Below are positions 1 through 8,199 of a stretch of 43,533 bases of DNA, in pieces (within the stretch, counting starts at the first letter, position 1; each line of letters starts with the position of its first letter). Position numbers and translations under genes: made by a program. The stretch comes from a virus: IMG/VR virus record IMGVR_UViG_3300033571_024612, positions 1-43,533 of that record. The stretch is one strand, 5' to 3'. The notes below the pieces were generated by a model that did no database searches, was not told the DNA's origin, and saw only the letters and a program-made list of their open reading frames with translations.

Positions 1-1923
1 CATCGCCACCAGGTCGACGCCATCGATCCGGCGGATGGTGGCATCGGCGCCGATGGCATCACGGATCCCCCGCTGGTGCTGGTGGCCTAGGGCCAGCAAG
101 TAGGCGCCGGTGGAGGGCTCGAACACCTCCCAGGCGCCGCTCAAATCCGGCCCCACCGCCACGGGGTAGGGGAGGGTCTGGCCGTAGGGGCCCTGCAGGC
201 GGCCGATGCCCGGGCCATCCATCCGCACGCTCACCCCGAGGATCTGATGCACCTGGCCGGCAGCGTCGTTGCGGGGCTCTTCATCCCGGCGGCGCTTGCG
301 GCGGCCGCGGTGCTCGGTGATCTGCTCGGCCAGGGCCTGGGCCCGTTCTTCGCAGGCGTCGCAGCAAGGCTCATCGTCGGCATCGGTGCGGGGCGGGGTC
401 TCGGGCGGCGCGGCGCCCTCCAGGGCCGCCTCATCTCCGGCGGCCTGAGCCTCCCCGGGCGGGGCCGCGGCTGGATCGCCCTCGAGCGTGCCGCCAAACT
501 CCACCGGGTCATCCTGCTCCGGCTGGGGAATGGAACCATCCGCCTCGCGGTTCAACAGGGTGGTGTCCAGGGAGAAGCGGGGCTTCCCGAACCTCGCGAG
601 CGCCACCTCGTTGGGCTGCAGTACGCGGGCCTGGATGTATTGGCTGTCGGCCACGGCCACCTTCTGGCGCAGCTCGGCCTGTTCGTCCTCGGTGGGGGTG
701 TAGGTGGGCCGAAAGGTGATCTCCCAGTCGGCGGGCAGGGCCTTGCCCTTCCAGGGGCCATCAGAGCAGGCCATCACCAGCTCGTAGATGTGCTGGAGGG
801 GTTCTTTGAGGTGCTGGGCCTGCCAGTCGGCCACCTCGTTCCCGAAGGCGGCCTGTTCGCTGCGGCCATCGGCGCCGAGGCCCGAGGGGCTCTCGCCCCA
901 CAGGAGGGTGTGGGGAAGGCCGCTGGCGCCGGTGATCTCGCTCTTCAGGCTGGTGAGGATGTCGGCGATACCGGCGGCCGAGCGGTTGAGGTTGGTCAGC
1001 TCCTCGTTGTCGTTCAGCAGGTAGGCGCCGATGGTGGAGCGGGCCAGGGCGTTAGCCTGCAGTCGGGCGCGCAGCTTGTCTTCGCCACCGGCGGCGAGCA
1101 TGTTGGAGAGGCCCGGCAGCTTGTGCACCACCAGGTCGAAGTCGTGCAGGATGTCGGCGGCGCTCTGCTGGCCGGTCTCGTAGCGCTTGAACACGTCCCA
1201 GATCAGATCCACCACCGAAACGCCCCACCACTGCCGCTCCTGCTGCGAGCGCCAGGAGCAGGGCAGGCCCTCGATGCGGATAACCCGGCTGCTGTGGATC
1301 TCGACCTGGGTGGCATCGGTGAGGCCGAGGCCGGCGCTGGTGACTTGCTTGGCACCGGCCTGCTCGTTCAGTTTCTGGAGGTCGCGATCGGCCTGGGTCC
1401 AGAACCAGTAGCGCTCCGGTTCCCCGATCCCTGACCAGCCGGCAGCGGGGTAGAGGCGCCAGCGATCGATCGGGTAGAGGCCATGGATGGTGCGCAGCCG
1501 CTTGAGATTCAGCGGCTGATCGATCGGCGTGCGGTCGTCGGCAATCACGATGATCGCGCCGCCGCCGTAGAGGCGGCTGTAGGTGGCGGCCTGGGCGAGG
1601 GCCTGGCGGAGGTGCAGCTTCTCGCTCCAGCCGACCACATCATCGAGCTGCTTTTTCATGCGGCTGGAGGTTTCATCTCCCACGCTCAAATCCCAGCCGC
1701 TGCGGGTGCCCTGCTGGGGGAGCTTTTCGACGATGCGGCGGATTAGCCAGCTCTGTTCGTAGAGGGCATCAATGGCGCTCTCTGTGAGGATGCGGGAGCG
1801 CTTGACGCCGATTGCCTCGTTGCGGTCCTTGGCGGTGCCCAGGCCGGTGAGCACATTGATTAGCGCACCATCAAGGCGATACCCGCCGCCGGGATCATTC
1901 GACTGCAGGAAACCGATCGCCAC
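1..1923 (-). CDS. Phage portal protein, DUF1073 type (C-terminal end cut by window)
   Basis: Reading leftward from a GTG at 1923, the frame stays open to the window edge (at least 641 codons), so the stop is outside. Residues 1 to about 450 resemble the DUF1073 portal family, which forms the dodecameric DNA channel at the head vertex. The tract LYGGGAIIVIAD is near residue 120. The family signature GESPSGLGADG, following GLPHTLLW, is near residue 345. After the portal core comes a Pro/Glu/Ala-rich linker with a CCDAC cysteine cluster near residue 519, then an Arg-rich patch and a further ordered stretch to the edge. Family portals are usually about 450-550 residues, so the tail is an extra domain or a fusion. 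GTG is the only start between the upstream in-frame stop and the conserved core, and its ribosome site is weak. Terminase lies upstream on the same strand, separated by an opposing four-gene cassette. Confidence 0.85.
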   Translation of the reverse strand, partial: MAIGFLQSNDPGGGYRLDGALINVLTGLGTAKDRNEAIGVKRSRILTESAIDALYEQSWLIRRIVEKLPQQGTRSGWDLSVGDETSSRMKKQLDDVVGWSEKLHLRQALAQAATYSRLYGGGAIIVIADDRTPIDQPLNLKRLRTIHGLYPIDRWRLYPAAGWSGIGEPERYWFWTQADRDLQKLNEQAGAKQVTSAGLGLTDATQVEIHSSRVIRIEGLPCSWRSQQERQWWGVSVVDLIWDVFKRYETGQQSAADILHDFDLVVHKLPGLSNMLAAGGEDKLRARLQANALARSTIGAYLLNDNEELTNLNRSAAGIADILTSLKSEITGASGLPHTLLWGESPSGLGADGRSEQAAFGNEVADWQAQHLKEPLQHIYELVMACSDGPWKGKALPADWEITFRPTYTPTEDEQAELRQKVAVADSQYIQARVLQPNEVALARFGKPRFSLDTTLLNREADGSIPQPEQDDPVEFGGTLEGDPAAAPPGEAQAAGDEAALEGAAPPETPPRTDADDEPCCDACEERAQALAEQITEHRGRRKRRRDEEPRNDAAGQVHQILGVSVRMDGPGIGRLQGPYGQTLPYPVAVGPDLSGAWEVFEPSTGAYLLALGHQHQRGIRDAIGADATIRRIDGVDLVAM

Positions 1924-1972
1924 GGGCCGATGCGCACAGGGCCAGGGTAGGCCTTATCACACAGGGACAACC

Positions 1973-2018
1973 TTGGCTGGGGATGTTACAACCCATAGGC
2001 TGGTAGAACATCCGACCT
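1973..2018 (+). promoter_or_regulatory. Weak promoter and possible operator before the sigma-factor gene
   Basis: TTGGCT at 1973-1978 and TAGGCT at 1996-2001 are separated by 17 bases and match the -35 and -10 consensus only 4/6 and 3/6. The transcript would start just before the GTG at 2025. Read on the minus strand, bases 2005-2018 (AGGTCGGATGTTCT) fit the cyanobacterial LexA box RGTAC-N3-DGTWCB with two mismatches. This would place a possible operator over the start point. Both assignments are tentative. Confidence 0.3.
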
Positions 2019-2024
2019 ATCCCG

Positions 2025-3023
2025 GTGAGCTCGCCGCTGGACGCGATGATGCAGGCCTACGGGCGGCTGCCGATCCCCACCAGGGAGGAGCAGGTGCTGC
2101 TGGGCCGGAAGATTCGCGCCTGGCTGGACTGGGAGCCATCGCTTGAGGAGCAACAGCAGGGCATCACCGAACCCCCGAAGCGGCTGCGGCGGGCTGGTGA
2201 GCGGGCGCGGGAGCAGTTGATCAGCAGGAACATGCTGCTGGTGGCAGACCAGGCCCGCTCATTTTCGGTGAGCTCCACGCCGGCCCTGGAGCTGCAGGAT
2301 CTGATCCAGGAGGGTGCGATCGGGCTATGCAGGGCGGCGGAGCTGTTTGATCCGGCCCTGGGCTATGCCTTCTCCACCTATGCGGTGCTGTGGATCCGGC
2401 AAAGCATGACGCGGATGGTGCATGGCTCTGGAGCCATCCATATCCCCACGAAACGATCCCAGGCGATGCACGGGCTGCGGAAGTGGTGCGAGGCGTTCAG
2501 TGCGGACGTGGGGAGGCCTCCCACCGATGCCGAGCAACTGGCAGCAGGCATCACCGGCGTGCAGCGGCCCGGTGATCTGGTAATCCTGCGCCAGGCGGCG
2601 GCCGTCTACCAGCTGCGCTCTCTCGATGTGGTGATGGGTGATGAGGATGGCGACACCTGGTTGAGCACCGTGGCGGCCCCTGCAGATGATCCGCAGCCAA
2701 CCGCCAGCAACAGGGAGTTGGATCAGGTACTGCAGATGCTGCAGCCCTGGCCGGTGCTGCAGGAGGTTATGGAACGGCGGCTGGCAGGCCAAACATTCTG
2801 GGAGATCAGCCTGGCAATGGGAATGAGCGAGCGGGCGGCGATTCGCCGCGGACGGCAGGCGCTGGCGATGGCGCAGCTGTTGGCGCGCAACAGCGCCATG
2901 GGGGATGAGCTGCAGGAGGAGGAGCTGGATTCTGATGAACCGCCAGCGGAAACTGCGCCGGCGCCGCTGCAGCATGTGGTGTACGTGCAGCCGTCCCTCC
3001 TGCCAGAGCCTGTACCCGCCTAG
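2025..3023 (+). CDS. Phage-encoded sigma-70 family RNA polymerase sigma factor
   Basis: This 332-residue protein resembles group 2/3 bacterial sigma-70 factors, which recruit core RNA polymerase to promoters. Residues 5-33 look like region 1.2. Residues about 60-135 carry region 2, with the hallmark order QDLIQEGAIGL (91-101), FDPALGYAFSTYA (108-120) and WIRQSMTR (123-130), the core-binding and -10-reading helices. Residues 140-175 resemble region 3, and 245-285 look like a diverged region 4 helix-turn-helix (FWEISLAMGMSERAAIRRG). The Asp/Glu/Pro-rich tail after 290 is not family-typical. GTG at 2025 is used; ATG at 2046 is an alternative that would lose part of region 1.2. The gene faces against both the portal and terminase genes and heads a + strand cassette. 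The likely role is redirecting host polymerase to phage promoters. Degenerate region 4 suggests altered or relaxed -35 recognition. Confidence 0.85.
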   Translation: MSSPLDAMMQAYGRLPIPTREEQVLLGRKIRAWLDWEPSLEEQQQGITEPPKRLRRAGERAREQLISRNMLLVADQARSFSVSSTPALELQDLIQEGAIGLCRAAELFDPALGYAFSTYAVLWIRQSMTRMVHGSGAIHIPTKRSQAMHGLRKWCEAFSADVGRPPTDAEQLAAGITGVQRPGDLVILRQAAAVYQLRSLDVVMGDEDGDTWLSTVAAPADDPQPTASNRELDQVLQMLQPWPVLQEVMERRLAGQTFWEISLAMGMSERAAIRRGRQALAMAQLLARNSAMGDELQEEELDSDEPPAETAPAPLQHVVYVQPSLLPEPVPA

Positions 3024-3035
3024 CACGTATGTTCC
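3022..3035 (+). promoter_or_regulatory. LexA-box-like operator
   Basis: AGCACGTATGTTCC matches the cyanobacterial LexA consensus RGTAC-N3-DGTWCB at every defined position except the third (C for T). It overlaps the stop codon of the sigma gene and lies about 44 bases before the ATG of the LexA-type gene. A possible -10 (TAAAGT, 3045-3050) lies just downstream, so a bound repressor would cover the -35 region. The consensus is recalled from the literature and no search was run. Confidence 0.45.
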
Positions 3036-3078
3036 ATTCCGGGGTAAAGTCGACCCGAAACCAGTCCATCACGATTTC

Positions 3079-3351
3079 ATGCGGGCACAGGCGCAACACC
3101 CCGAAGTCACCTCGGAAAGGGAGAAGGCGCTGACGGAGATGCAGCAGCGCACCCTGAATGCAGTTCGGGCCTACATCGATGCCAACGGCATCAGCCCCAC
3201 CCTGAAAGATCTGAAGGCAGCGCTGGGGCTCTCATCTCTCAGCCCGGTGCAGTTCCACCTGAGGAACCTGCAGGCTGCCGGGGCGATCGAGCAGCGCCGT
3301 GGTGTGCCCCGCTCGATTCGGGTGTTATGGCCCCGCCATGAGGTGGCCTGA
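3079..3351 (+). CDS. LexA-type winged-helix DNA-binding protein without peptidase domain
   Basis: This 90-residue protein matches only the N-terminal DNA-binding half of LexA. QQRTLNAVRAYIDANGISPT (22-41) is the usual LexA opening. It is followed by LKDLKAALGLSSLSPVQFHL, the recognition helix region, and by NLQAAGAIEQRRGVPRSIRV, the beta wing. The Ser/Lys autoprotease half of LexA (normally about 110 more residues) is absent and the reading frame ends cleanly. The ATG at 3079 is chosen because it gives a LexA-like N-terminus; the frame is open further upstream across the sigma-gene end. The stop TGA overlaps the next ATG. It could compete with host LexA at SOS boxes or repress its own cassette through the box at 3022-3035. 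Without the peptidase it should not be inactivated by RecA-stimulated self-cleavage; that is inference. Confidence 0.75.
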   Translation: MRAQAQHPEVTSEREKALTEMQQRTLNAVRAYIDANGISPTLKDLKAALGLSSLSPVQFHLRNLQAAGAIEQRRGVPRSIRVLWPRHEVA

Positions 3352-3596
3352 TGGACTCGGAGCAGTTGCCAGGGATGCCGGCCAAACCTGGGCCCATTGC
3401 GCTCACAGACGCCCAGGCTTTCGAGGTGGAGCGGTTTTCCCGGGCCATTGATGCCACCTCTGACCTGGAAGCTCTGCGGGGCATGTGCAAACAGCTGTTG
3501 CAGGCCTGGATGACACAGAAATCCGTGACCTGCTGGGTCATGCGTCAAAACCTGTCAGGGCCTGCTCTAAACCACCGGATTTCGGAGGATTTCTGA
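3351..3596 (+). CDS. Small NblA-like protein 1
   Basis: The 81-residue product starts at an ATG that overlaps the preceding TGA, so translation is probably coupled. Residues 17-65 (LTDAQAFEVERFSRAID, then LEALRGMCKQLLQAWMTQK and WVMRQNL) follow the pattern of NblA/Ycf18 proteins: a short L-S/T-x-x-Q-x-F helix, then a longer helix rich in leucine and glutamine. NblA is a small helical adaptor of about 55-65 residues that triggers phycobilisome breakdown and is carried by some freshwater cyanophages. The resemblance is at pattern level only; other small cyanobacterial families share this look. The last 15 residues have no family feature. Confidence 0.5.
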   Translation: MDSEQLPGMPAKPGPIALTDAQAFEVERFSRAIDATSDLEALRGMCKQLLQAWMTQKSVTCWVMRQNLSGPALNHRISEDF

Positions 3597-3895
3597 TGGT
3601 CTGGGGGCAATGGAGAGTGCCGGAGCTGAGCGAAGAAGATCGCTTTGCCTTGCGCGTGCTGGAGATACAGCTTCGCGAAACATTGCCGCGCCACCCCGAA
3701 ACCTTGCTGAAGATGTGCGTGGTGATGGCAGAGCAGTGCCGGATCAAGGACAACATCATCAACAAGGCCAGCAAGCTGATTGCCGAGCTGGAGGCAAGCC
3801 AGGCCATTGCAGAGCCGGCGGCACCTCAGCGGCGCCGGCGGCGCGGGCTGCGGCGCGGGGTTGAGTTTCTGCGGGCGGTGGTGCTGGGCCAATGA
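3596..3895 (+). CDS. Small NblA-like protein 2 with basic tail
   Basis: The 99-residue product starts at an ATG overlapping the previous TGA, with a good Shine-Dalgarno (GGAGG) about 8 bases upstream. Residues 10-66 show LSEEDRFALRVLEIQLRETL followed by a second helix ending in EQCRIKDNIINKASKLIAEL. This is close to the NblA pattern (F-x-L-R-x-L-E-x-Q-L, then a C-terminal helix with I/V-K-D-N). The C-terminal 30 residues add a Arg-rich segment (QRRRRRGLRRG) that could bind nucleic acid or an acidic partner. Together with the neighbour it forms a pair of related helical proteins, perhaps from an old duplication or working as a heterodimer. A hairpin follows the gene. Phycobilisome targeting is inference. 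Confidence 0.5.
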   Translation: MVWGQWRVPELSEEDRFALRVLEIQLRETLPRHPETLLKMCVVMAEQCRIKDNIINKASKLIAELEASQAIAEPAAPQRRRRRGLRRGVEFLRAVVLGQ

Positions 3896-3926
3896 TCGAC
3901 CCGTCACACCTCGCCCAGCTGCAGGG

Positions 3927-3945
3927 CTGAACCGCAACGGTTCAG
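3927..3945. terminator. Hairpin between convergent genes
   Basis: CTGAACC and GGTTCAG form a 7-bp stem with a 5-base loop. It sits where the rightward NblA-like cassette and the leftward terminase gene meet, and overlaps the terminase stop. No T-tract follows, so termination would be weak or protein-assisted. Confidence 0.35.
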
Positions 3946-5510
3946 ACCATGTGGATCCAATCGGCGATCATCGGCCGCACCCTGGCGCCGGCTTCACAGG
4001 CCGCGGCCAGGCTGATCACGGCGTCGTCGTGGCAGCCGGCTGCAGCCTCGCGGGTGCCATCCGGCCCCTGGCGGAACACGCGCATCTGCTCCCCGTAGAT
4101 GCTGTCCGGAGGGATGCCCAGCTCGCCCTGCTCGAGCAGCAGCAGCACCCGATCGGTCATGGCGATCTTGCTGGCCTTGCCAGTGTGGAACTCTTCGATG
4201 GGCACCCAGGAGCGGAGGCGGGCCAGGGCCTCGCCAACAGCAGCGCCGACCCCGTTCTTCTCGATCAGCACCAGCTCAGGGCTGTACTGGTCGATCAGGC
4301 GGGCGGTGCGCTGCAGGCCGTAGTCGCGGCTGCGGCGCGCGTCGTTGAAGGACGCCACCACCTGCCAGGGGTTGGTGGTGACATCGAGCACGGTGGTGAC
4401 CCATTCGTCATCGCCGGAGCCGTTCGGGTCGATCCCGATCACGTAGTTGTGGCCCCTGGTGGGCAGATCCAGCCCGCCGATGGCCTCGCTGGCTTCAATC
4501 AGATCGTGGGGGTAGACCTCGGCATCGGTGGCGGCGAAATCGAGCTCGAACTCCTGGCGGTAGCGCTGCTCGGTGAGCTGGAATTTGCGCCTGGTGTTCT
4601 CCGCGTAGTTCGGATCCTGGCTGTAGATCGGGTGCTGGCTCCAGTGGATGGCCACCTTCGCGAAGCCACCGCAGGGGCTGCAGCGGAGGCTCGGGATCCC
4701 GTTGACCGTGCCATCGCCGATCTGCTGCTCGCCGTGGTCCGTGCTCCAGTGCTCATGGAACCGGCCACTGCGGCCGTTGGGGGTGCTCACCCACACGGCG
4801 CGGGCGCGGGGGCCCAGCAGGCTGAGGGTGGGCATGGCGCCGGTTTCAATGCCGCCCAGTTTTTCGATGAACGCACCCTCATCGAACAGCACGAAACTGG
4901 CCGATGGGATGCCCCGTGCGGCCCGCTCGGTGGGGGGCAGAAAATGGAGGCTGCCGCGGCCTTGGAAGACCAGTTTACGGGCGGAATCCTTCGGGAGGGG
5001 TGGGCAGTAGGCACCCAGGCTGGCGGCCTGGCCCTTGATCCGGGCCGCCAGTTCAGAGGCGTCCTCTCCAGTCTTGGAGAAGATGATTCCCACCCAGGCC
5101 GGCCGCTGGATGGCCTGCTGCAGCATGTAGGAGATGACGGTCTCTGAAACGCCGGTCTGGCGGGACTTGAGCACGTAGGTGTTCTGGTAGGCGCGGATCG
5201 TGCGCACCAGCAACAGCTGGTAGTCCCAGGCCCTGAAGGGCAGGTACTTGCCCTGTGAGGCGATGTAGGTGCGTGCGGCAAAATCGGGCCAGCGCTTGGG
5301 GAGCTGATCCCACAGCTGCACCGCCTGCTCCTGGGAGAACAGGCCGCGGCGGGGCAGGTACTGCAGCACCGGTTGCGGCGGCCGCACCACCCTCTGGCGA
5401 GGCAAGTGGCGGCCTGCTGTGGCGCCCTTGCTGCGGGGCCAGGCATAGCAGGGTGTCTGGGTGCGGAGCTGGGCCTCGTATTCAGCCCAGGCCTCGTCAT
5501 CCCAGGCCAT
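3942..5510 (-). CDS. terL: Terminase large subunit (packaging ATPase/nuclease)
   Basis: This 522-residue protein is the DNA-packaging motor. The ATPase half has the phage-type Walker A VLKSRQTGVSE (113-123) and Walker B FVLFDE (206-211), with the coupling tract VSTPNG at 241-246. The RNase H-like nuclease half shows its acidic residues at IGIDPNG (D361), LIEKNGVG (E417) and CHDDAV (D495/D496). Length and order are normal for TerL. The start ATG at 5510 overlaps the stop of the preceding gene by four bases, so the two are coupled. The portal is the next leftward gene, as in most tailed phages, but here the opposing sigma cassette lies between them. Confidence 0.95.
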   Translation of the reverse strand: MAWDDEAWAEYEAQLRTQTPCYAWPRSKGATAGRHLPRQRVVRPPQPVLQYLPRRGLFSQEQAVQLWDQLPKRWPDFAARTYIASQGKYLPFRAWDYQLLLVRTIRAYQNTYVLKSRQTGVSETVISYMLQQAIQRPAWVGIIFSKTGEDASELAARIKGQAASLGAYCPPLPKDSARKLVFQGRGSLHFLPPTERAARGIPSASFVLFDEGAFIEKLGGIETGAMPTLSLLGPRARAVWVSTPNGRSGRFHEHWSTDHGEQQIGDGTVNGIPSLRCSPCGGFAKVAIHWSQHPIYSQDPNYAENTRRKFQLTEQRYRQEFELDFAATDAEVYPHDLIEASEAIGGLDLPTRGHNYVIGIDPNGSGDDEWVTTVLDVTTNPWQVVASFNDARRSRDYGLQRTARLIDQYSPELVLIEKNGVGAAVGEALARLRSWVPIEEFHTGKASKIAMTDRVLLLLEQGELGIPPDSIYGEQMRVFRQGPDGTREAAAGCHDDAVISLAAACEAGARVRPMIADWIHMV

Positions 5511-6001
5511 CAGAAATCACCTTCTCGATCCAGCGCTTCCTGCTCTTCCGGGGTGAGGGGTGCGGCACCAGAACCGCCGTCGCCGAGCTCCTGCTGGGCG
5601 CGCTCGAACTTGTCGATGCTGAGGATGAATTTGTTGATCTCGGCCAGGGTGCCAAGGGCGGTTTGCAGTTGCCGGGCCTGCAGGGATCTGCGCAGCAGCG
5701 ATTCCATCCGGCTCACCTGAATGGCGCCCATCCGCAGGCGGTCGTAGAGGCTGGTGCTCTGGATGCAGAGCTCGTAGGCATCGGCCACCAGGCGGGCAGC
5801 TACGGCAGGGCTGACCTTGAAGCCCTTGGTCGCCACGGTCATCAGATCGTGAGCCCCGTAGCCCTCCTTCACAGCCAGGCCCAGCAGGGCATGCACCCGG
5901 TAGTTGCGTTCAGCGGCCTTAGAGATGCTGCGGTCCTTGGTTTTCGGCTTGGCCTTGGGTTTCCGGGGCTTGGGATTGGCGCCGGCCTTTTCGCTGCTCA
6001 C
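5510..6001 (-). CDS. Probable terminase small-subunit-like or packaging accessory protein
   Basis: A 163-residue protein directly upstream of TerL, coupled to it by an ATGA overlap. It starts with a Lys/Pro-rich basic arm (about residues 8-25), followed by an all-helical body with two likely helix pairs (HALLGLAVKEGYGAHDL; AARLVADAYELC) and an acidic C-terminus with PLTPEEQEAL. No family was firmly recognised. Position and architecture fit a TerS-type subunit, which recognises DNA and regulates TerL. GTG at 6001 is preferred because AGGAGG lies 9 bases before it; a TTG at 6022 is also open. Confidence 0.5.
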   Translation of the reverse strand: MSSEKAGANPKPRKPKAKPKTKDRSISKAAERNYRVHALLGLAVKEGYGAHDLMTVATKGFKVSPAVAARLVADAYELCIQSTSLYDRLRMGAIQVSRMESLLRRSLQARQLQTALGTLAEINKFILSIDKFERAQQELGDGGSGAAPLTPEEQEALDREGDF

Positions 6002-6018
6002 GCCGGTGTGCCTCCTGC

Positions 6019-6594
6019 TCAAAACGTAGGCGCCTCATGCTCAACAACTCCCGCAGAGATGTGATCCGCTTCGCAGCGGCGAGCGTGTTCCTTCAGCCAG
6101 CTCCTCACCGCCCAGGTGCTGCGATTCAGCATCAGGCCGATGGTGGCCATGTCGCGGCCCTCGGCGCGCAGACGCAGGGCCCGGGCGCCCTCTTCCGCCG
6201 TCCATCGCCTCAGGGCCACAGGCACTCGATGCCGCCGGGCACGGATCGTCACGCCAGCCTCCACCAGCAACTTTCGGATCCGCTGCGGCGACACCCCGTA
6301 GCAGGTTGCGATCGACTTGATGCTCGCATCGGCCAGGTAGCGGTTCACCACCATCTGCACCGGCAGGGGCACTGCAGGCGGCACCAGGCCATCTCCACCG
6401 GCCTGGAGGTTGTTCACCAACGCACGCCGTTGCCTCACCCAGCCGCCGTTGATCCGCGCATCAGCCAGCAGCTGGTAGACGGCCTGATGAGAGCAACCCA
6501 CGGCCGCGGCGATCGCCTTCACGGGCACGCCTTGCCGGTGCAGGTCCAACATCCGGCAATGGTGGTAACGGGTGAGCGGCCGGCCTTTGGCCAT
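6019..6594 (-). CDS. Triple helix-turn-helix DNA-binding protein
   Basis: 191 residues from the ATG at 6594. Three separate helix-turn-helix-like units can be seen: VKAIAAAVGCSHQAVYQLLA near 25-45, IKSIATCYGVSPQRIRKLLV near 90-110, and MATIGLMLNRSTWAVRSWLK near 148-167. Repeated HTH units of this kind occur in transposase-like and TerS-like DNA readers. Its place before the packaging genes suggests either the true small terminase (pac/cos recognition) or a late regulator. It ends 17 bases before the next gene's GTG. The frame is open from a TTG at 6603, but ATG is the better start. Confidence 0.6.
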   Translation of the reverse strand: MAKGRPLTRYHHCRMLDLHRQGVPVKAIAAAVGCSHQAVYQLLADARINGGWVRQRRALVNNLQAGGDGLVPPAVPLPVQMVVNRYLADASIKSIATCYGVSPQRIRKLLVEAGVTIRARRHRVPVALRRWTAEEGARALRLRAEGRDMATIGLMLNRSTWAVRSWLKEHARRCEADHISAGVVEHEAPTF

Positions 6595-7338: not shown

Positions 7339-8199
7339 ATGTCTTTCCATTCCGGCGAGTCTGTGCGCAAGATGTCTGCTGACAGGCTGAGAATCCTGCT
7401 ACAGACAGGGTTTCGCTGGTCGGAAGCGGCAGAAATCAGCGGGGTGTCGCTTTGGGTGCTCCGGACCTGGTGGCAGCGAACAGGCATACATCTCTGCGAT
7501 CCGATCGAGCGGGCCCAGGCAGAGCGATTGATACAAGCGAACTACCGGCAATGCTCACCTCGGCTGTTTGACGGTTTGGTGGTCTGCAGCAAGTGCCGCG
7601 GCCTGCTGAAGCCGCCGGATCAGAGGGATGTCTGTGGCCGCCCGCACCGCTGGGCCTGCACTCGCTGCCGCACCGCTGGCCGCCGGGAGTGGGTATCAGC
7701 CGCGGCCATCAAGCGGGCTGTGTTTGAGGCACTGCAGCGACGGCTGCCGGAGATGGCCCGGCTGTGTGAGCACCGCACGAAGTTTCAACGAGAGCGCGAG
7801 CAGCGGTGGCTGGAGCAGCTGGAGCAGTTCCAGGCGATGGCCCAGCGGTTGCATGAGGCTGGCGTACCGCGCCTGGCAATTTTGGCGCGGGCGGCCCAGG
7901 TGCAGCTGGCGGAGGATGAGCTGGGAGATCCGCCCTACCTCGATCGACACAACTGGGGCGAGACGTTCAGCAGCTGGGGGGCGTGGGAAGGTGCCAGCTC
8001 ACACCAGTGGCGGATGGTGACCGCCTTCTTCTGCCGGCAGATCGTCTGGGATGGCGAACGGGTGCAGGTGGTCCTGTTCGGCCGGCGGTTTGTTGATCCA
8101 CTGTTGATGGATCGCAACGAGGATCTCGTTGATCAGCCCCTCTGGCGGCCGCCCGTTCATCCGTTGGCGTTCAGCCATCCTGCTCATCGAGAATGTTGA
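7339..8199 (+). CDS. Serine-recombinase-like protein lacking the catalytic domain
   Basis: 286 residues. It opens with a helix-turn-helix (FRWSEAAEISGVSLWVLRTW, about 25-44). Next is a zinc beta-ribbon of the large-serine-recombinase type: LFDGLVVCSKCRGLL then WACTRCRT, four cysteines, followed by a helix AAIKRAVFEALQRRL. A long helical segment follows (125-185), with a C-terminal piece FFCRQIVWDGERVQVVLF like the end of XisF-type recombinases. The N-terminal resolvase domain of about 140 residues that carries the serine nucleophile is missing, and no separate gene for it is seen in the window. It may be a trimmed integrase remnant, a directionality or decoy factor, or one half of a split recombinase. 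It stands alone on the + strand between two leftward blocks. Confidence 0.6.
   Translation: MSFHSGESVRKMSADRLRILLQTGFRWSEAAEISGVSLWVLRTWWQRTGIHLCDPIERAQAERLIQANYRQCSPRLFDGLVVCSKCRGLLKPPDQRDVCGRPHRWACTRCRTAGRREWVSAAAIKRAVFEALQRRLPEMARLCEHRTKFQREREQRWLEQLEQFQAMAQRLHEAGVPRLAILARAAQVQLAEDELGDPPYLDRHNWGETFSSWGAWEGASSHQWRMVTAFFCRQIVWDGERVQVVLFGRRFVDPLLMDRNEDLVDQPLWRPPVHPLAFSHPAHREC

Follow-up and report, generated by a model that had tools for sequence, protein, structure and literature searches.

Why should a phage carry, among its packaging genes, a sigma factor gene and three small companions that are read against the prevailing direction? The question is raised by the IMG/VR virus record IMGVR_UViG_3300033571_024612, analysed here over its whole length of 43,533 nucleotides (the window). 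Four plus-strand genes, the last three of them overlapping, lie within a leftward portal/terminase block. They encode a sigma-70 family factor (P0001), a LexA-type DNA-binding protein (P0002) and two small helical proteins (P0003 and P0004) reminiscent of NblA. A preliminary description of this DNA had reported the arrangement, the sigma-70-like factor and a LexA domain lacking its peptidase. All three are borne out: the arrangement is present in the sequence, the families PF04542 and PF01726 score over their cut-offs, and the P0002 frame ends straight after the domain. The wider pattern is a sigma gene accompanied by one NblA-like gene, which is beyond what the letters of the window alone could reveal. 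The answer proposed here, tentatively, is a cassette for the takeover of transcription.

Sigma genes with a small neighbour

P0001 is assigned by its sigma-70 region 2, which is clear (PF04542, E-value (E) 2.3e-12, 46.9 bits against a cut-off of 24); region 4 is divergent and shortened in the alignment. The protein also matches the cyanobacterial RpoD/SigA group TIGR02997 (E 3.4e-32, 111.9 bits, below the cut-off of 384.5) and phrog_351 (E 3.6e-26), and is 29–31% identical to the sigma factors of phages S-CBS1, S-LBS1, KBS-S-2A and S-CBS3. A defence-system reading from padloc (MZA) was rejected: P0001 resembles MzaA over region 2 only (56–135 or 61–135) and not over its full length, and the other padloc matches are marginal helix-turn-helix ones.

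Three of these phages have, beside a sigma gene whose product is 30–31% identical to P0001, a small gene of the P0004 family annotated as hypothetical (S-CBS1 gp27/gp26, KBS-S-2A CPKG_00011/00010 and S-LBS1 A33/A32). The small proteins share the helix pattern of P0004, and two have its W-x2-W motif; in S-CBS3 the sigma gene is present and no small gene was detected. Comparison of the P0004 lineage with the sigma-linked small proteins of phages gives a probability of 96% (E 2e-9), with a score of 51, which compares with 18 for the best of 100 column shuffles. A profile of 23 phage proteins, from which the window lineage was excluded, picks P0004 out of 2183 segments at E 6.9e-13. The arrangements differ. 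The pairs of the three phages are tail-to-tail, with an annotated lysozyme gene nearby in S-CBS1 and S-LBS1, whereas the window pair is co-directional between portal and terminase, has no lysozyme adjoining it, and is separated by the LexA-type gene and a second NblA-like gene, so that P0004 begins 0.57 kb past the sigma stop.

The pairing recurs throughout IMG/VR. Among 52 loci found with the small protein, a sigma gene lies within 300 bases in 36, convergent in every case, and four loci stop within 70 bases of the small gene. From the opposite side, the best 80 of at least 573 sigma loci, chosen by similarity to the KBS-S-2A sigma factor, hold a small gene within 100 bases in 66 cases and at 0.9–1.03 kb in eight (E 2e-4 or better). 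All 74 pairs are convergent, and L293 is the only locus of the 80 cut on the relevant side. Ten genes of the S-CBS1 neighbourhood were tested with iterated profiles, homologues anywhere in a locus being counted. Only two accompany the sigma gene almost everywhere: the lysozyme, in 70 of 71 testable loci, and the small gene, in 72 of 76. The remaining eight range from 2/63 to 25/63, or reach 50/75 in the case of gp25. A second short gene, of 51–60 amino acids (aa), stands beside the small gene or the lysozyme (table 1), and homologues of its S-CBS1 copy occur in 50 of 75 testable loci. Judged by eye, the small proteins of L212, L213 and L216, encoded convergently with sigma, come closest to P0004 in their length and N terminus (MSWGEWMVPELS), and the rearranged pair may derive from an ancestor like them.

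The reunion of both gene types in the window, in another orientation and another place, suggests that the sigma factor and the P0004-type protein are a working pair.

Relation of the small proteins to NblA

Neither small protein is recognized by the Pfam NblA family PF04485, which is absent at E ≤ 10 for both and is not among the families listed for 11 P0003-family and 26 P0004-family members. P0003 has no Pfam match, and P0004 searched alone has no match above chance. P0003 weakly matches phrog_27081, of unknown function. For P0004, a RecBCD inhibitor (phrog_4790, E 0.063; matched by 3 of the 26 family members, at E 0.017 or worse) and a polymerase B fragment (E 0.07) were discarded as chance-level candidates.

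The cellular relatives of P0003 are cyanobacterial. A scan of genome contigs gave 13 confirmed loci at 49–65% identity, nine of them named Cyanobium, Synechococcus or Synechococcaceae and four only 'Cyanobacteria bacterium'. From these nearest cellular relatives, the host of the phage is probably a picocyanobacterium. In a sample of 194 genomes of the same class, the family occurs in 13, with up to seven matches each; by their size (1.7–3.0 Mb) and kinship, these genomes are probably picocyanobacterial. Canonical NblA is found at E ≤ 0.001 in 144 of the 194 and over the cut-off in 141. All 13 genomes with the P0003 family lie outside these 141, among them six with five to seven matches to the NblA-like family (G068, G145, G152, G159, G187 and G200). 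The sole sub-threshold NblA match of that survey among the 13 is itself a P0003-family gene, whose product forms a bridge between the three families (G139:C1, ~541140–541292; Pfam NblA E 3.9e-4, P0003 family 8.2e-12, P0004 family 5.7e-4). Three genomes that may, by their size of 1.7–1.8 Mb, be Prochlorococcus (G039, G113, G194) hold one P0003-family match each.

The P0003-family profile also finds the annotated NblA of S-SCSM1, ORF237 (E 4.6e-10 among 2183 segments; hhalign probability 96%), so that P0003 adds, by sequence, a further member to a family for which the name NblA-like is already in use. That family includes the picocyanobacterial nblA-like genes treated in PMC9602691 and PMC7439483 (and Nadel et al. 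2019, cited therein). These papers report that picocyanobacterial and cyanomyovirus NblA was detected by HHpred (PMC9602691), that Synechococcus WH8102 has a divergent nblA-like gene, and that Prochlorococcus has neither phycobilisomes nor an nblA orthologue (PMC7439483). The setting of ORF237 is different: it is flanked by virion-protein and helicase genes, with no sigma or LexA-type gene in the 3.1 kb inspected there. Closer relatives of P0003, at 56–60% identity, occur in eight other viral contigs (L036–L041, L043, L044), in loci without P0001, P0002 or P0004, and remoter ones in S-CRM01 (E 2e-3) and PSS2 (E 0.07). In L036–L038 and L040 the P0003-like gene stands upstream of a frame read by eye as a terminase; such genes may have landed in packaging regions more than once. 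An in-frame stop interrupts it in L039 (~1095–1290) and L040 (~5995–6190), either as a decayed copy or as a case of read-through.

P0003 and P0004 are probably distant paralogues, since the same window-free profile that finds P0004 gives P0003 as its second-best match in the window (E 1.9e-4). A first comparison of the P0003-family alignment with P0004 yielded no link (probability 6.7%), and setting the P0004 lineage against the P0003 family gave none either, 8 of 100 shuffles scoring as well; with a deeper P0004 family the two are linked (94–95%, 0 of 100 shuffles as good). The P0003-family profile matched the gene adjoining the KBS-S-2A sigma gene at E 1.3e-5, and the S-CBS1 and S-LBS1 counterparts only at 0.097 and 0.42. 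In the 194 genomes, the deep P0004-family search gave three matches at E ≤ 0.001, all of them P0003-family genes; one match outside that family, obtained with a shallower profile (G181, E 4.5e-4, one internal stop), was lost with the deeper one. The structure models have a shorter helix followed by a longer one in both proteins, at 20–35 and 39–68 in P0003 (mean predicted local distance difference test score (pLDDT) 76.9) and at 13–29 and 34–72 in P0004 (77.7), where a C-terminal helix follows at 81–96. The N-terminal W-x2-W motif is present in P0004 and absent from P0003.

Common ancestry of these proteins with NblA is likely on the profile evidence. The P0003 family aligns with the 30 best-scoring NblA proteins at an hhalign probability of 85% (score 31.9, 0 of 100 shuffles as good). 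The alignment is confident over its first 23 columns only, and not at the C-terminal end. Sequence-profile searches of the PDB, one for each family, returned 11 and 12 weak matches with an NblA chain among them (1ojh at E 0.39, aligned over its residues 1–23, and 3cs5 at E 0.53). Four sub-threshold Pfam NblA matches (E 0.35–0.71) occur in 3 of 13 genomes, three of them on P0003-family genes; that level is also reached in three non-cyanobacterial control genomes, and only the positions of the matches count. The likeness to canonical NblA would be that of a short protein with a predicted helix-loop-helix and, in the P0003 family, a probably similar N-terminal stretch. The differences are the missing Pfam match and a C-terminal end that is not confidently aligned. 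The preliminary description had called both small proteins NblA-like; this stands as remote homology detected by profiles, and does not extend to a Pfam match. According to PMC4103541, the N-terminal motif of NblA binds ClpC and a motif near the C terminus binds phycobiliproteins. NblA is known from phages such as Ma-LMM01 and PaV-LD (PMC9602691), of which Ma-LMM01 is described in PMC4103541 and PMC5780444 as having no phage sigma factor.

A LexA-type protein without peptidase

P0002 carries a LexA DNA-binding domain at residues 16–78 (PF01726, E 1.2e-13, 51 bits against a cut-off of 23.7) and matches phrog_3502 (E 7.8e-17). It shares with bacterial LexA repressors this domain and, by eye, a similar recognition-helix pattern; it differs in having neither linker nor C-terminal self-cleaving peptidase, the reading frame stopping at residue 90. 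Longer proteins (open frames of 232–360 aa) that are 31–35% identical to P0002 occur in 10 of 13 cyanobacterial genomes. The recognition-helix pattern (P-x-Q-x2-LRxLQ-like) is seen by eye in P0002 and in six of eight host proteins; the translations used for two of the eight loci, L302 and L307, were in a wrong frame.

The consensus used for the SOS box is RGTACNNNDGTWC. A candidate box in the window, AGCACGTATGTTC (table 1), has one mismatch to it and sits within 24 consecutive columns that are invariant in five sequences, L013 being the sole diverged one. Boxes such as AGTACTCGTGTTC or GGTACATCTGTAT, with 0–2 mismatches to the same consensus and without a chance control, occur upstream of eight host lexA-type loci. 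Because P0002 has no self-cleaving domain, the SOS sensing envisaged in the preliminary description is unsupported, and SOS-box binding is the most that P0002 would offer.

Conservation of the four-gene unit

A search of IMG/VR with P0001 gave 15 close contigs and two distant ones. Twelve of the 15 carry the complete set of four genes, P0004 being cut at residue 73 in one of them (3300034096_000878); the remaining three stop within the unit. The matched sigma protein is 98–99% alike between the window and all close contigs except L013, a four-gene contig that is only 86% identical, so the close contigs are, by sequence, one phage lineage and one diverged variant. With L013 excluded, matched stretches are 88–92% identical to the window for P0003 and 78–84% for P0004. 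IMG/VR scans with P0001–P0004 found the full set in this single lineage only. The ratio of non-synonymous to synonymous substitution rates (dN/dS), from comparison of the window with L013, L014 and L016, is 0.18–0.25 for the sigma gene and 0.11–0.37 for the LexA-type gene, which indicates clear constraint. The unit exceeds a chance grouping of genes. The preliminary description would have fallen had the small proteins proved unrelated to NblA and the four genes never been met together elsewhere; neither is the case, although the complete set was found in one lineage only.

L013 has an intact fifth gene after P0004 (7880–8347, ATGA overlap), encoding a winged-helix protein of 155 aa with a weak resemblance to replication initiator O (phrog_678, E 2.8e-6). 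Of twelve contigs inspected at this site, ten have the short frame of the window and one, L013, has the full gene; L008 is unreadable.

Proposed mechanism and alternatives

On the reading preferred here, the unit is a transcription-takeover cassette with a phage sigma factor and an NblA-superfamily small protein as its core, the small proteins serving as Clp adaptors with other cargo. This seems quite possible, though short of probable. (i) P0001 would load on host RNA polymerase and read phage promoters. (ii) P0003 and P0004 would be NblA-type proteolysis adaptors whose N-terminal end docks on the ClpC unfoldase. (iii) Their altered C-terminal end would take other cargo; both steps are proposed because the confident similarity to NblA falls on its N-terminal, ClpC-binding end. 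(iv) The likeliest cargo of P0004, given that its relatives adjoin sigma genes, would be a component of the transcription machinery, either a host sigma factor that competes with the phage one or, as a timer, the phage sigma factor itself. (v) For P0003, whose closest kin are the NblA-like proteins of the host itself, the targets may be those that this picocyanobacterial family has in the host. (vi) P0002 would bind the host-type SOS box before its own gene and regulate the unit; lacking the self-cleaving domain, it would stay bound whether the host SOS response is on or off. A bolder version, which we regard as decidedly improbable, gives a group of cyanobacterial phages a two-part device of phage sigma factor and NblA-derived Clp adaptor. 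The adaptor, once aimed at antenna proteins, would now send a host sigma factor to destruction just when its phage rival arrives, and in the window lineage the device would have been rebuilt as a single unit, together with a second adaptor and a LexA-type switch insensitive to RecA. The host-takeover module of the preliminary description was right in spirit, in that a sigma factor is the centre of a takeover-type unit; its SOS and light-harvesting parts are unsupported.

It is somewhat unlikely that both small proteins are phycobilisome-degrading NblA proteins, freeing amino acids and protecting the photosystem, with the sigma factor a mere neighbour or driver of expression. P0003 does group with picocyanobacterial and cyanomyovirus NblA-like proteins (PMC9602691), and in the 194 genomes its family (13) and canonical NblA (141) never co-occur, as if one replaced the other. 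However, the confident similarity lies at the N-terminal end of NblA and not at the end that holds phycobiliproteins, which also leaves the light-harvesting breakdown of the preliminary description unsupported. Pfam NblA matches no member of either family, P0003-type proteins occur in the three genomes of what may be Prochlorococcus, said in PMC7439483 to be phycobilisome-free, and the company of P0004-type proteins with sigma genes would go unexplained. The recurrence of that company invites a different thought, namely that P0004-type proteins bind the phage or host sigma factor directly, as anti-sigma factor, chaperone or appropriator, and involve no proteolysis, their NblA likeness reflecting only a shared hairpin ancestry. 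The helical hairpin with C-terminal helix of the P0004 model fits this, as does the W-x2-W motif in P0004 and not in P0003. We nevertheless judge it unlikely: an anti-sigma role does not need a P0003 of the same superfamily in the unit, and 12 of the 52 small-protein loci continue without a sigma gene.

The association might also be incidental, with an inherited sigma/small/lysozyme block in other phages and, in the window, a chance pile-up of accessory genes lodged between portal and terminase. Within the block the lysozyme is no less conserved than the small gene, the four-gene set was found in one lineage only, just 12 codons of the fifth gene are left in 10 of the 11 relatives that could be read, and the eight viral contigs with P0003-like genes lack the other three. 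Against this, sigma and P0004-type genes are reunited in the window in a new place and orientation and without lysozyme, the small genes are joined by TGATG junctions, and dN/dS is below 1 in all four genes. Plain synteny can account for the convergent block; it does not account for the rearranged sigma and P0004 genes of the window. We regard an incidental origin as very improbable.

Several observations weigh against the takeover cassette itself. The convergent pairs can be explained by synteny of the block, the 12 loci without a sigma gene count here too, and 5 of the 80 sigma loci have room for a small gene and lack it (L281, L292, L294–L296). The sets of 52 and 80 loci keep duplicates and partly overlap (shared contigs, S-CBS1 included), and are not independent samples. 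The best shuffle in the P0003-family/NblA comparison scored 27.2, close to the true alignment. When the P0004 family is aligned directly with NblA the signal is weak (hhalign 7.8%, 0 of 100 shuffles as good), and weaker when the window lineage is removed (4.7%, 1 of 100). Foldseek and VIA searches with the P0003 and P0004 models against the PDB listed no NblA. Constraint is weaker on the small genes, with dN/dS of 0.46–0.71 for P0003 and 0.56–0.65 for P0004. Against the reality of the unit as such counts that codon-usage gene calling recovered the sigma and P0004 frames and missed P0002 and P0003. Matches to the SOS box number 10 in the window against 6.16 expected, which is not significant alone. 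Finally, binding of P0003 and P0004 to Clp, a sigma factor or another partner is something that we infer.

Genomic setting

The window has the markers of a tailed phage: portal, terminase large subunit, tail protein, endolysin-type peptidase, Erf-like annealing protein and ParB-like protein. Gene calls other than the named genes come from a codon-usage script. G+C content per kilobase is 0.53–0.71, and a tRNA search of the 43,533 bases found none. Within the unit (table 1), 55 bases separate the sigma gene from P0002, and at both TGATG junctions (P0002/P0003 and P0003/P0004) one base is common to stop and start. A scan of positions 1800–4100 for sigma-70 promoters found none, and one for terminators gave one terminator-like site against 1.2 expected by chance. 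The inverted repeat ahead of the sigma gene occurs once in the window, where chance would give 0.07 (at most two mismatches); because one arm is altered in L013, its reading as an operator is given little weight. Elsewhere in the leftward block, an open frame of 286 aa (7339–8199, plus strand) with a cysteine-rich, zinc-ribbon-like stretch resembles large serine recombinases by eye, and is possibly an inserted remnant or no gene.

Table 1. Features of the four-gene unit and its surroundings (window positions unless a contig is named).
Feature	Position	Strand	Remarks
Portal	1-1923	-	phrog_146, E 4.9e-87
Inverted repeat GGATGTT-19-AACATCC	1981..2013	.	between portal start and sigma start; possible operator, weak
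P0001, sigma-70 family factor	2025..3023	+	332 aa, GTG start
Candidate SOS-type box AGCACGTATGTTC	3022..3034	+	overlaps sigma stop codon, upstream of P0002
P0002, LexA-type winged helix without peptidase	3079..3351	+	90 aa
P0003, NblA-like helical hairpin, picocyanobacterial type	3351..3596	+	81 aa
P0004, sigma-linked NblA-like family	3596..3895	+	99 aa; N-terminal W-x2-W motif
12-codon frame MIDPSHLAQLQG at fifth-gene site	3892..3930	+	ATGA overlap with P0004
Terminase large subunit	3942-5510	-	phrog_2, E 1.5e-31
Second short gene, L019	6135-6290
Second short gene, L020	6235-6417
Second short gene, L021	6135-6296
Second short gene, L022	6679-6858

Significance

A literature search, with most subscription papers outside its coverage, returned no report of a phage sigma gene next to an NblA-like one, and the accessible parts of PMC6778093, PMC3744912, PMC6157547, PMC3751600 and PMC10452541 do not describe the pairing. 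Sigma factors of phages have been described before, and so have their NblA proteins, but within that coverage not the two together. The pair, present in 74 of the best 80 of at least 573 sigma loci, offers a cheap test of how such phages switch polymerase. The occurrence of the P0003-type family only in genomes without canonical NblA over the cut-off (13 of the 194 sampled), with up to seven matches per genome, suggests that the NblA fold may be a more general adaptor.

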